Shown: positions 16,472 through 22,335 of the stretch, piece by piece
Position numbering within the stretch: the first letter of the stretch is position 1
How the letters are laid out: each line of letters opens with the position of its first letter
Origin: Deuterostichococcus epilithicus
Taxonomy: Eukaryota; Chlorophyta; Trebouxiophyceae; Prasiolales; Stichococcaceae
Direction of reading: 5' to 3'
NCBI GenBank assembly: GCA_033439295.1
Contig: JAVTLE010000014.1
Location: 4,030,001 to 4,094,000, forward strand
Length of the DNA stretch: 64,000 bases
Program-made: the position numbers and the translations under genes
The notes under the pieces: generated by a model
The model's input: the letters and a program-made list of their open reading frames with translations, nothing else
Database searches by the model: none
What the model was told of the DNA's origin: nothing

Positions 16472-19400
16472 TCACGCGAGGCGGCCGGCCGCGTTGCCAG
16501 GCGACCGGTCTCGGCTGCTGAGCATCACGTCTGGGCCGCCTGCGGCATTCACGTCGGACAGCCGCTCGAGGGAGGGGCCGCCGCCGCCGGCGCTGCTGGC
16601 CCTGCTGCCTCTTCGCGCGCTCCCGCCGCCTTTCCTGGCCGCGGCGCCAGCGCTGCCGTCGCCGCCGGCGCCGGCCGGTGGCGCCTTGACGATGAACAGC
16701 AGGTTCTCTGGCTGGTCTCGCGGCACGCGCGCCGCGAGCGTGTCGAAGCCGTCGGGCTGCAGGCGGCACCAGGTCGGCTGCTTGAGCGCCTCCCGGCCCG
16801 CGAGCCCGATCGCACCCCTCGATCTGCGGGAGTAGCAGCCAGCACATCGAGGAAGCACTGCAAACTTGCAATGTCGGCTGAGGCCGGGGCACTGTTGCAG
16901 CTTGGGGCCAAACCAGCCCTCGCTGCAGCCTCCTGCGGCCTTGCTGCTTGCGCTCCAGCAGTAGTCATTTCACAGCGGGTGACCGGCTTCTTTGCAAATG
17001 TCAAATTTGCAGGCATCATCTGCCTTTGAGCCATTTCTCGTCCTCGGGTCGCCTTGAACCTACCAGCAGCAGGGCGACCTGGTAGTGTGTCACACATCCT
17101 GCGCCCGCACCTGATGGACTTTGTGATGTTGAGCCAGCGCTCGTCGCACACGCGCCCCGAGTGGCTGACGTCGGTGTACCCCCACGCCGCCATGCGCCGC
17201 AGCAGCCCGGCCGCAGTGCCGCCGCCGCCTGCCGCCATCTTCCCCGGATGCAACTCCACCAGCACCACGCCGGGCGCCTTGGCCTCTATCAGGCTCTGCG
17301 ATGCGCAGACGTGCTGTCCGGTCAGCTGTTTGCCCGACCCCAGCGATTAGGTCCCTTCCGCAGGACTGCAGCAACGAGCCTCAGCTCCATCGGCCACGCA
17401 CCTGCTGGGTCCCTGTCCTGACAGTTTCCTTACGCAAGGTGCACAACAGCTTGTTGAGGGTTGCTTCAGGCTGGACAAACGAGCACTCATGCAGCACAGA
17501 AGCGCTGGGCGAAACCAGTGAGGATGTGCACCTGCAGCCCGTCGAGGACGGCGTTCTCCCAGCCGGGCGCGCTGATGCGCACTGCCATGACGTCCGTGCC
17601 GGGCGGCACCAGGCTGGCCGCAGCCCGGCGGATGCCCGTGCGCGTGCACTGCCCCCCCGCCGCCGGCTCCCCCGCCTGCATAAAAGTGCACCGGACACAG
17701 GACGTCAAAAGTCAACAGCTTAAAGACAAGATGAAAACACAATGACCGGGGCAAGGCTCGCATGCCTCTGGCCATGCTACCACAAGTGAGCGTGGCACAT
17801 CTGCTCAGCTGAGCAGGTTCCACAGGCTCCCAACCACGGCACCTGCATCCTGGCGACCTCAAGTGACGCCAGCCCCATGAAACCCCTGTGAACACCCTGT
17901 CCATTACGAAGACTTGGAGAAAAGGTCAGAATTCGTGACGGCGCACCTCTGCAGTGGAGTAGCCGCGCGCGAGCGCGGTGTCGTGCACGCTGCCGCGCTC
18001 CAGGCAGACGGGCTGCCCGTCCGAAGCGCCTGCCGGTTGCCGGTGCAGCGTCACCAGTCTGTTGAAGCCGGTGAAAGCCAGGCTGGCCTCGAAGGGCTCA
18101 AGGCTGCGGGCGAGGGAGAGTGGGTATATATGAGAGGTCGACAGAGCAGCTCAACAGGGTGAAACCAAGGTCCCAATGGCCGTCAAGGAGTCGTCACACT
18201 GTGTGTGACCTTTGCCCTTCAATCAAGTATTCCTTGAAGAGCATGGTCACATACGATCACAACGATAGCAGACGAGGTGGCACAGCAGGGTCTTGCCAAT
18301 GCTGTTGTTGCATGAGTGAGCAGTGTTGTGCAAGACGGACGAAGGAGCCAGCACAGCATTTCGTCATCGGTGGCCCCAGAAGCAGCAGCAGCAGCAGCAG
18401 CAGCAAAGCCGCACCTGCGGGGGCTGGCCTCCATCGCAATGACGCGGTGACCGCGTGCCGCGGCTGCCAGGCTGAACAGGCCCTGCCCGGCCCCGATGTC
18501 GAGCAGCACCTGCAGCGAACCATGTCAATCAATCCTGTCAATCGTGGGGCAGGACAGGCGCGGTCGACCTCTGTTTCTCACGTCTGAGTCTGCCATGCCA
18601 GCCACGATGTCCAGCACATGCACAAGCCACTGAGCAGAGCTGCCGGCTCACAGCCACCAGCGCATCAACGAGGCCCCAGCGAGGGTGAGATTGGCGATGG
18701 CACATCGCGCCCTTGCGGCAAGTCGGCTAGCTAGCACAACGCAAGGGACCCGCGGACGTTATGATCAGGCCATAGAGCCATCGACTACGAAGACCTGACC
18801 CCAACCCACCTGCTGTTCTGCGCGACGGCCGCCGAGCGAGCCGATGAGCGCCTCCCCGACGCTGGGCCGCCGGTGCGGCTCCAGAGCTGGCTGCCAGCTG
18901 CCCCACGCGGTGAGCGTCGCTGCGACATCATCGCCCGCCTGCCGGTCGCCGGCGCCTTTCAGCGGCACCAGCATGCTGAAGGGGGGCGTCCACTCCACGG
19001 ACACCGGGTACAGGGAGACTGACGACTCCTTGATGACGTCCACCCCTGTCTCCTTCCCCTTCCTGTGGACGCGATGTCAAAAGTGTCATGAGTGCCAGGT
19101 GGAGAGAATGTGCCAGAGGATGTGTTAGGCCATGCAACCCACGGCTTGGAATCCATTCAGATTGCAAAGACGCACAAAGAGGAGCCTGCTCACCGCCGGT
19201 GCAGCCAGTCGCTGAAGCGGCGGGCGAGAGCGCCGACGCTGATGCGGCGCTTGCGCCAGCCGCCGCGCACCTTCCAGCTGCCCAGGAAGTGGTGCATCAC
19301 TCCGATGCGCGGGTCGTCAGGGAACAGGTTGTCCAGGCCCGCAGGGTGCGCCCCCCAGTGCACCTTTGGCAGGATGCGCACATGCCACGGGTCGTCCGCC

Positions 19401-22335
19401 TGCAGCAATGTTTCCGCTGTTGAATTGAGAGTCACAAAAGATTCTGTTTCTTCACGTGTACTTTGATTGTGTTGGACAGCTCCCGGCATCGACCGCTGTC
19501 ACACATCAGCAGCCGCCGACCTGTGGCGCTGATGGCGCGCGCAGCACGGGCATCGCTTTGCAGGAGAGGACATGGTGATTGGCCGCAGCAGGCATTCCAT
19601 CTGGCATCCACCCTGCATTGGCGCAGCAATCAGGTGTACGAGCCATCCCAACACCCATGATTGTGTAGCCCATCTGGTCGCGACTCGCCTTGCCGGGCGG
19701 GTGCGCGAGCGCGTGCTTGAGGATCACGTCCGTCCACACCCCCGGCCCCGTTCGCTCCAGGGTGTCCCGGTTGGTATTGTTGCTGAACACCGTGGTCGCG
19801 TGCCGCGCGATGTGGTCGCAGATCTCGCGCAGCGCAGGGTGCCCCGGCGCCCCGGCAAACACCCACTGAAGCACCTGCGGCGCGCCAGGCACAGCATGCG
19901 TCTGCCGGCGTTGGTGCAGCCACGCTTGGCGGCGGCACGCAGTTCCTGCCTCCCGTTTTCCTCCTCACAGCAACCCTCCCTCACGGCACCTGCTGCCACT
20001 TCCCAGTCTCACAGGAAGGCACCCCCCCGTAGCAGCGCGCCGCAGCTCCGCCCCGCCGCTGTGTCATGCGGCACCGGGACCCCCACCTGCCGGCTGCGGA
20101 CGTAGTGGCGCCGCTCCGCCTCGGCCGGCTGGTCGAATTCGTTCTCCCAGCCCGCCACCAGCGTGTCGCGTGGCGCGATCAGCTCGCTCATCGGTCGCCG
20201 GCACTCTGTGTCCAGGTCTGCATACACGCCGCCGAGGCGCAGCACCACCTGCAGGCGCCCAAATTACAGACCATGGCCTTCGTCGACTCAGCAGGCAGCG
20301 AAGGATGCGGCCGCAGCACCGCTTGGGGAGAGATATCGAAAGGGAGCATTGGAGGATGGACATCGCGATTGCTGCGGCAATGCTACCTGGTAAAACAGTT
20401 CAGACACCTGAAGCTTGGGGGTGGCAGGTCTTCCGCATGCTGCAATGCTGCACAGCATTGACTGTGGGCAGAGTTGCAGACGGTCGGGAGTTCAGCTCTG
20501 CAACTGTCACCGGATTGCGCCCAAGCTGAGCAGTGTCGCATCTGCATCCGCAGTGCTGCATGTAGATCCACAGAGGAGGCCTGGGAGTTGCGGCATTAGT
20601 GGACCTTCGCCAAAGTACTACATACCATGTAGCGGAAGAAGTCGGAGCGCTCGACGTGCTTCGGCAGCGCCCGGTAGGCTGCCAGGTACTCTGGAAACTC
20701 GCGGCCAACAAATTCCAGGCATGCCTCGTCGTCGTAGAAGCGGATCTCCCACCCGGGATTGAGCCGCCGCCAGCTCTGGCACCACACGCAGCAGCCCCAT
20801 GTTTGACCACTTTTTCCACCAAGGTTTGCAGCAAACTCCCTGCTACATGTCCTGTTGAGTCCTTGTGCAGGCAGGCAGTGCACCAACTCCAAAGGGCGCA
20901 TCAACGTCCAGACACCAGTGCTGTCAAAGTTGTCCCTGGAGCGAGCATGGCAGCGGAGGACCTGCGACGTCATGAACAGGAAACAGACAGCATAGCGTTC
21001 AGCATGCCAGCGAAAGACGAGCATGCTCACCTGCATGAAAGGGCGTACAGCCGGCGGCACCTTTGCCGACTTGTACGTCTGGTGTATGATAGCAGGTATG
21101 AGCTTTGGCGCCTCGTCCGGCGCATCTGCTCCGCCGCCACCACCGCCGCTCGCCAGCAGCGACGGCGCGCCCGAGATGATGTGTGGGCCGCCGCGCAGGC
21201 GGTAGATGTTGCGGATCTCATCGTATGCTGAGACTGTGGGCGGCAGCAGCTGCAGCTCCAGGGGCCCTGCGCATGTTGCCAGCGCACATTGGCATGGGTG
21301 TGAAACTGCACATCTGGCTGCAGCCCTCCAGCAGCACGAAGAGCAGCCTGTGCGGTAGCATGTTGCCGCCGCTTGACACAGCAGCCCCATTGTGCTTGGC
21401 CATCAAAGCTTGTTCCAGTGAGCTGTGGAGTTCAGCCGTGCAACGTGCCAATTGACAGCTCGACTCGAGCACAGCGCTTGCAGCCAGACCTCCCACCTGG
21501 TATCCTGTAGCAGAAGAAGAAGCCGCAGGAAGCCGCATGGAAGACTACCAGCGCCGCCACCATGCCCGCCAGCAGCTTGCACAACGCGCCGGTGGTGAGC
21601 CGGCACCTCCATGCCCGCCACGCCCGCCAGCCTCGCCACCGGGACTGCTGCGACGCGAGCCGGGCGGTGTTCTGTGGTCCCCGGCCTGATGTCCCCTGCT
21701 GCGCAGCAATATGCCTGATGTCAGCGGGGCCAACGACATGGACGGCCGCCGAGGGTGCCGCCCGGCCCCCAAAACTGCCACAATCTGCCCTCCCAGCCGC
21801 GGCAGCCTAGGTCAGCTGAATGACTTGCACTGGGCATCTGCCTCTACCGAGGCGAAGCGTCCTGCAAGTCGAGCGCAGAGCAGATCCACTTTCGAGTGCA
21901 GCTCTCTGGGGTGCTGCGGGAAGCCTAGGCGCGGGTGTATGTGGTTTAAGAGACCTTGGAACACATTTGCTGACGAGCTTGCGGTGGAAGAAGGCCCCAG
22001 TCAAACATCGGGAACACAGAGCTTTGAAATCGTCGACGGATTGCTTTCGTGCCCTCGGGTGTGGAAATTCCAAGGAGGTGCACCGGCTGCATGCAATGCG
22101 CTGTTTGTGCGTAGAACCGACCTGCGCAGCCAGAAGGCGTCACGTCTGCGGCAAGCTGCAGTAAGCAAATACTCACCGATGGGAGCGGCGGTCGGGCGAG
22201 GCTGGGAGCAGCGTGCAGCATCCAATGCCCCTTGTCAGGACTGCCGACGCAAGCTGCGAAGCCGGTCTCCTCATCCAGATCCGGCAGCGCGACCGACAGC
22301 AGGCGCTGGTAGCTGCTGCTCCTGGACAGGCTCAT
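16472..22335 (-). CDS. GT32 glycosyltransferase fused to FkbM-type methyltransferase
   Basis: Thirteen exons (22335-22177, 21698-21497, 21266-21031, 20775-20626, 20248-20087, 19874-19689, 19399-19194, 19062-18810, 18509-18415, 18103-17947, 17675-17532, 17295-17111, 16823-16472) join in phase to about 828 residues. A short N-terminal tail and a membrane anchor around residues 87-108 predict a type II Golgi protein. The GT32 (OCH1-like) part has IPAIIHQTYKS (about 173), NPGWEIRFYDD and the DXD motif in GGVYADLDTE (about 260). After residue 433 follows an FkbM-like SAM methyltransferase with VLLDIGAGQG (519-528), a paired acidic strand MEASP, and a VLVELHPG block before the C-terminus. A low-complexity tail ends the protein. 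The two halves are joined by a phase-2 intron between DWLHR and KGKETG. Intron 6 uses a GC donor (AAG|GCGAGT). Exon 1 is the least certain. A role in making and O-methylating a cell-surface or secreted glycan is inferred. Confidence 0.8.
18381..18405. repeat. AGC trinucleotide run in an intron
   Basis: About eight AGC units lie just downstream of exon 9 of the GT32-FkbM gene, in the intron. This is a simple repeat with no assigned role. Confidence 0.7.

Follow-up and report, generated by a model that had tools for sequence, protein, structure and literature searches.

A likely fusion of a GT32 glycosyltransferase with an FkbM-derived domain in the green alga Deuterostichococcus epilithicus

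Introduction

A single polypeptide that adds a sugar and then methylates it is already known from PBCV-1, a virus of chlorella-like algae, whose A064R protein combines two glycosyltransferase domains with a methyltransferase domain in one chain: it attaches two rhamnoses and methylates the last of them at O-2 (PMC9614988). As in the activity proposed below for an algal protein, A064R acts on an N-glycan sugar that it has itself added, and its methyltransferase is C-terminal. Unlike the algal protein, it is viral and 638 residues long, and its glycosyltransferase domains are of other kinds: D1 has a GT-A fold, which the authors compare with family 34, and D2 represents a new family (PMC9614988). 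For the A064R methyltransferase that paper gives matches to class I enzymes; FkbM is not mentioned in its main text.

Green algae carry methylated mannoses on their N-glycans and methyl groups on their O-glycans, and none of the enzymes that methylate them had been characterised as far as the authors of a review knew in 2020 (PMC7773692). The N-glycans of Chlorella vulgaris carry terminal 3-O-methyl and 3,6-di-O-methyl mannose; according to the available text of the study, the responsible enzyme was still to be identified in 2019, and its authors named identification of the O-methyltransferase as a first requirement for glycoprotein production in this alga (PMC6344472). Among the matches listed from the later literature, no title or start of an abstract identifies the algal methylating enzyme, and it is not identified in the available text of papers from 2020 (PMC7140410) and 2024 (PMC11482596). 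GT32 and FkbM, the two families that meet in the gene described here, appear as separate families within one gene region in a paper on bacterial flagella, and an FkbM gene lies near sugar genes in Ostreococcus, as far as the available text of that paper goes (PMC5082852).

Gene structure

The gene lies on contig JAVTLE010000014.1 of Deuterostichococcus epilithicus, at positions 16472..22335 (minus strand) of the window, the whole 64-kb stretch of DNA that was analysed. Rebuilt from the DNA, its 13 exons join into 827 amino acids and a stop with all joins phase-compatible. The sequence-only reading that preceded this analysis had proposed 13 exons in one frame, running from a membrane anchor through a GT32 domain with a DXD motif into an FkbM-like domain, with phase 2 on both sides of the join 19194/19062, and in all of these respects the rebuilt model agrees with it. 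The features are as follows.

Exon 1, 22177..22335, minus strand: ATG at 22335 and N-terminus; weak coding score, 0.094
Exon 2, 21497..21695, minus strand: basic stretch, then hydrophobic anchor (residues about 90–115); lowest model-frame coding score of the 13, 0.065
Exon 3, 21031..21266, minus strand: stem and start of the GT32 domain (IIHQTYKS)
Exon 4, 20626..20775, minus strand: GT32 (SWRRLNPGWE ... RSDFFRYM), assigned from PF04488
Exon 5, 20087..20248, minus strand: GT32 core GGVYADLD with DXD, assigned from PF04488; both Asp match columns that are invariant in 57 prokaryotic GT32 ORFs
Exon 6, 19689..19874, minus strand: GT32; GC donor at 19689
Exon 7, 19194..19399, minus strand: end of GT32 (HHFLGSW)
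Intron 7, 19063..19193, minus strand: key join; if retained, TGA 19192-19190 ends a GT32 protein
Exon 8, 18810..19062, minus strand: linker and region ahead of methyltransferase motif I; coding score 0.315
Exon 9, 18415..18509, minus strand: SAM-binding motif LLDIGAGQG and acidic IAMEAS
Exon 10, 17947..18103, minus strand: FkbM-like domain
Exon 11, 17532..17675, minus strand: RISAPGWE in place of KIDVEGAE of the relatives
Exon 12, 17111..17295, minus strand: FkbM-like VLVELHP strand, then a helix
Exon 13, 16472..16823, minus strand: C-terminus with Gly/Ala/Ser-rich tail; stop at 16474-16472

Among the three forward frames, that of the model has the top coding score in all 13 exons. With the reverse frames included, the model frame is top in 12 exons and is outscored in exon 2 by a reverse frame that contains a stop. 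Exons 8–12 score 0.241–0.452, like GT32 exons 3–7 (0.270–0.433). Intron 7 is the shortest of the 12 introns at 131 nt, the remaining eleven spanning 212–481 nt. Donors are GT in 11 of 12 cases; the lone non-GT donor of the gene is the one at 19689, at the end of exon 6, where exonic AAG is followed by GCGAGT. Among the five neighbouring ORFs upstream and downstream of the gene, none has a Pfam match.

The anchor and the GT32 half

Of all 19-mers in the protein, the one that starts at residue 90, after a basic stretch, is the most hydrophobic. Type II Golgi anchors have this layout, which predicts a Golgi location. OCH1, an alpha-1,6-mannosyltransferase of the GT32 family, has a type II anchor; it is not known to have a methyltransferase domain. 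The algal protein shares the GT32 domain with OCH1-type enzymes: it matches PF04488 at E 2.2e-14 and 54.3 bits, above the gathering cut-off of 23, and its best solved relative is 9n3s_A, a chain of an initiation-specific alpha-1,6-mannosyltransferase (E 8.3e-15). Bacterial GT32 proteins also match it well, at up to 102 bits in tblastn, a score not directly comparable with that of phmmer.

The sequence GGVYADLD supplies the DXD within the family motif GG-x-Y-x-D-x-D. When 57 prokaryotic GT32 ORFs were aligned without the alga, nine columns were invariant, and the algal protein, added afterwards, agrees at eight of them, GG-Y-D-D included, the ninth (Trp) being Tyr. With its motif set nearly intact, this half looks like a working GT32, and the sugar that it would move may be a hexose, most likely mannose.

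The FkbM-derived half

The C-terminal half falls slightly short of the curated cut-offs of one FkbM model and well short of another. TIGR01444 (FkbM) is the best among the NCBIfam models listed, at E 4.2e-9 (next model, E 6.3e-6), and its 37.0 bits lie 0.7 bits under the cut-off of 37.7; PF05050 aligns over nearly its full length, yet reaches 13.2 bits against a cut-off of 22.7. We also built a custom FkbM profile from 14 prokaryotic sequences, comprising 8 annotated CDS and 6 ORFs. The C-terminal part scores 50.3 bits against this profile, with an alignment over its residues 85–258, and of 2000 shuffled sequences given to the same profile 704 were scored, the best at 6.3. FkbM ancestry is well supported despite the missed cut-offs, because of the TIGR01444 and PF05050 alignments and of the distance between 50.3 bits and the best shuffle.

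Motifs were compared with the same 14 sequences plus L001, the alga genome's own best FkbM match, 15 in total. In motif I (D-x-G-x-x-x-G), the algal protein has the same residues as 15 of 15 at the Asp, at both glycines and at the acidic residue that comes after the motif, and it also agrees with 15 of 15 at the Glu of G-x-E and at a late Glu. The second motif, K-I-D-x-E-G, is different. Its Asp (15/15) is Ser in the alga, its second acid (14 Glu and one Asp among the 15) is Pro and its Lys (14 of 15) is Arg; further upstream, the acid of an LD motif, present in 14 of 15, is Ala. The equivalent of K-I-D-x-E-G lies wholly within exon 11, so the replacement is not a splicing artefact. Judged from this alignment, the SAM-binding half of the domain is retained and the second motif is lost. 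Compared with the FkbM family as a whole, the algal domain aligns over nearly its entire length and keeps motif I together with the acidic residue and the late Glu, but lies under both curated cut-offs and has the D-x-E-G acids replaced. The SAM-binding FkbM-type domain of the sequence-only reading therefore stands as to its FkbM derivation and its intact SAM-binding motif, and needs amending as to the acid pair.

The acid pair is kept elsewhere. It is present in the solved FkbM structure 2py6 and at all six other FkbM-like places of the alga's own genome that were examined and cover the motif (L001, L002, L003, L004, L005 and L030), a count that leaves out C18:1965476, C16:64715 and L029 (match to the N-terminal part of the domain only).

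By eye, exon 8 resembles the bacterial region ahead of motif I, as a conserved FkbM N-lobe would. We do not make this assignment: a profile of that region, built from 14 relatives, left exon 8 unscored, whereas it scored 670 of 1000 shuffles of exon 8.

Other combinations of GT32 and FkbM

We searched the alga's own genome (46.8 Mb, 21 contigs) in six frames, a procedure that can miss short exons, and within that limit no second locus with fused GT32 and FkbM was found. The same genome has matches to light-harvesting proteins at 39 places (E <= 0.001), in keeping with a green alga. PF05050 matches five places at E <= 0.001 and TIGR01444 seven at E <= 0.1, this gene included, while PF04488 matches six at E <= 0.1, two of which are exons of this gene. 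Only one other contig, C18, has both kinds, about 1 Mb apart. Used as a query, the GT32 half gave four weak matches outside the window (E 0.011–0.446) and the methyltransferase half gave one (E 0.19). Two GT32 matches on C18, at C18:2981260 and C18:2984372 (L025 and L023), lie about 3 kb apart and are perhaps one gene or a tandem pair.

Single-protein queries with either half or the whole protein confirmed no close relative in viral contigs or prokaryote genomes, and the methyltransferase part found no relative among plasmids; GT32 relatives of the algal protein occur in 41 plasmid records and 44 phage records. We scanned GT32 loci for FkbM, taking from prokaryote genomes the best 80 of 122 confirmed loci and from viral contigs the best 80 of 241. 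All 160 contain a GT32 ORF. An FkbM match lies inside the GT32 ORF in one of these 80 prokaryote loci and in none of these 80 viral loci; an FkbM-like ORF anywhere in the locus, fusion included, is found in six and five of them, respectively.

Similar to the algal gene, locus L123 (proteobacterial MAG contig JAKANT010000242.1, 616-3018) has GT32 and FkbM in one ORF, with both domains above their Pfam cut-offs and FkbM also above the NCBIfam cut-off. Unlike in the alga, FkbM comes first and GT32 second, the ORF is uninterrupted and the canonical KLDVEG is kept. In other loci, with ORFs taken from stop to stop, a separate FkbM-like ORF comes after the GT32 ORF or overlaps its end: L129 (116 bits), L103 (19.6 bits, weak) and L194–L196 (17.6 bits, weak). 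The last three are IMG/VR viral contigs in which the end of the GT32 ORF is overlapped by a weakly FkbM-like ORF (L194:2741-4089, L195 and L196). A Pfam scan of four neighbour ORFs and nine large viral GT32 ORFs found PF05050 in four of the 13, which are not named individually.

GT32 is a frequent fusion partner: among the 25 of 58 families listed for 57 prokaryotic GT32 ORFs of at least 450 residues, Anp1 occurs in 28 ORFs and Glycos_transf_2 in 22. Large prokaryotic GT32 ORFs (L051–L130) are often fused to Anp1, to family-2 glycosyltransferase domains or to TPR repeats. The order GT32 then FkbM was not found elsewhere in the scanned prokaryote and viral GT32 loci or in the alga's own genome, and our literature search found no characterised fusion of GT32 and FkbM (Gly_transf_sug and Methyltransf_21). 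The earlier claim that no characterised protein has this order thus stands for this pair of families in the literature searched, but the chemistry of adding and methylating a sugar has its precedent in PBCV-1 A064R.

Activity of the C-terminal domain

The reading that we put forward, tentatively but as a real possibility, is that one gene encodes a type II Golgi protein whose GT32 domain adds a hexose and whose FkbM-derived domain O-methylates the same glycan end. With intron 7 spliced out, the product would be a Golgi membrane protein whose lumenal, OCH1-like GT32 would draw on a nucleotide sugar to place the hexose (mannose most likely) on a glycan. The C-terminal domain would bind SAM, as its retained motif suggests, and, although divergent, would most likely methylate the sugar as A064R does with rhamnose.

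Since the acid pair is Ser and Pro, methylation by this domain is uncertain, and the proposal of the sequence-only reading that one polypeptide could add a sugar and methylate it is not supported in the form given, the LD acid being Ala as well. The acid pair is presumably catalytic in FkbM enzymes; we found no literature source that proves this, so its loss lowers, without excluding, the chance of methyl transfer. A real fusion could instead carry at its C-terminus a non-catalytic relic of FkbM, a pseudo-methyltransferase serving in folding, SAM sensing, acceptor binding or the assembly of a Golgi complex, with GT32 as the sole enzyme. We regard this as somewhat unlikely. It would account for the replacement of an acid pair that is acidic in 15 of 15 sequences and of an LD acid found in 14 of 15, a pair moreover kept in 2py6, in the bacterial fusion L123 and at six of six other places of the alga's own genome; but the SAM-binding residues remain, the methyltransferase exons look coding and intact, and the catalytic role of the acid pair is itself presumed.

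One gene or two

An active fusion, the reading put forward above, also depends on the join between exons 7 and 8. Read-through of the donor at 19194 meets the in-frame TGA 19192-19190 at once, and the GT32 matches end ahead of it. For these reasons we took seriously that the locus may hold two tandem genes, a GT32 gene that ends at this TGA, followed by an FkbM-like gene whose start lies either just past it or, as an alternative, inside exon 7. An in-frame ATG, the first of exon 8, is available at 18974. In addition, there are four routes from an ATG to a GT donor in exon 7 or intron 7 whose intron, of about 60 nt or more, could lead into exon 8 in phase: two share one ATG in another frame of exon 7, one lies in the GT32 frame and one is a short leader. 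Separate GT32 and FkbM-like ORFs that neighbour or overlap each other, as in L129 and, weakly, in L103 and L194, show the corresponding arrangement in some bacterial and viral contigs. The donor and acceptor of intron 7 are themselves middling, each ranking 9 of 12 in a leave-one-out matrix.

Several observations argue against two genes. The TGA is merely 127 bp from exon 8, and the leader route (exon 19156-19143) needs an 80-nt intron, shorter than all 12 introns of the model (131–481 nt). Exon 8 is coding-like from its acceptor onwards: the 29 codons ahead of ATG 18974 score 0.35, a value that no intron window of that length reaches (n = 2348), in a comparison that is flattered because introns doubled as the score background. 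Among 404 exon windows the median is 0.418 and the lower 5% lies at 0.145. These 29 codons look translated, and therefore a start further upstream is needed. The poly(A) signal TGTAA is absent between 19194 and 16472, which is a weak argument because none is found near the gene's own end either.

On this evidence, two genes are decidedly unlikely. The fusion is likely and the join 19194/19062, which the sequence-only reading had singled out as key, is probably genuine, the coding-like stretch of exon 8 ahead of its first in-frame ATG being the evidence that it is used. Errors in part of the exon structure, for instance at the weak sites in exons 1 and 2 or around exon 4, would change the protein chiefly at its N-terminus and leave both domains; we consider them very unlikely: exons 1 and 2 have weak coding scores (0.094 and 0.065) and acceptor 20775 and donor 20626 are the lowest by splice matrix (-0.13 and -0.4), but joins 3/4 and 4/5 yield the GT32 profile as one stretch.

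Discussion

The likely fused protein of D. epilithicus may be regarded in its most specific form as a cellular, Golgi-resident counterpart of A064R, in which GT32 would cap a glycan with a hexose and the FkbM-derived domain would O-methylate it without the D-x-E-G acids. We consider this form unlikely. Weighing against an active fusion are the replaced acid pair and LD acid, the missed curated FkbM cut-offs, the change of the GT32 Trp to Tyr, the missing score of exon 8 under the profile of the stretch ahead of motif I, the middling sites of intron 7 and, in six-frame searches that can overlook short exons, the finding of no further fused locus in the genome.

An OCH1-like GT32 with an FkbM-derived tail would fit the gap in algal glycan O-methylation. 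If the protein is indeed a counterpart of A064R, it would supply one of the enzymes still missing from the account of how algal glycans become methylated. Should the methyltransferase domain be dead, the gene would still be informative, as a case in which a fused methyltransferase fold is kept without its usual acid motif. An anchored GT32 with an FkbM-like domain is a single candidate for green-algal glycan O-methylation, one that can be knocked out.
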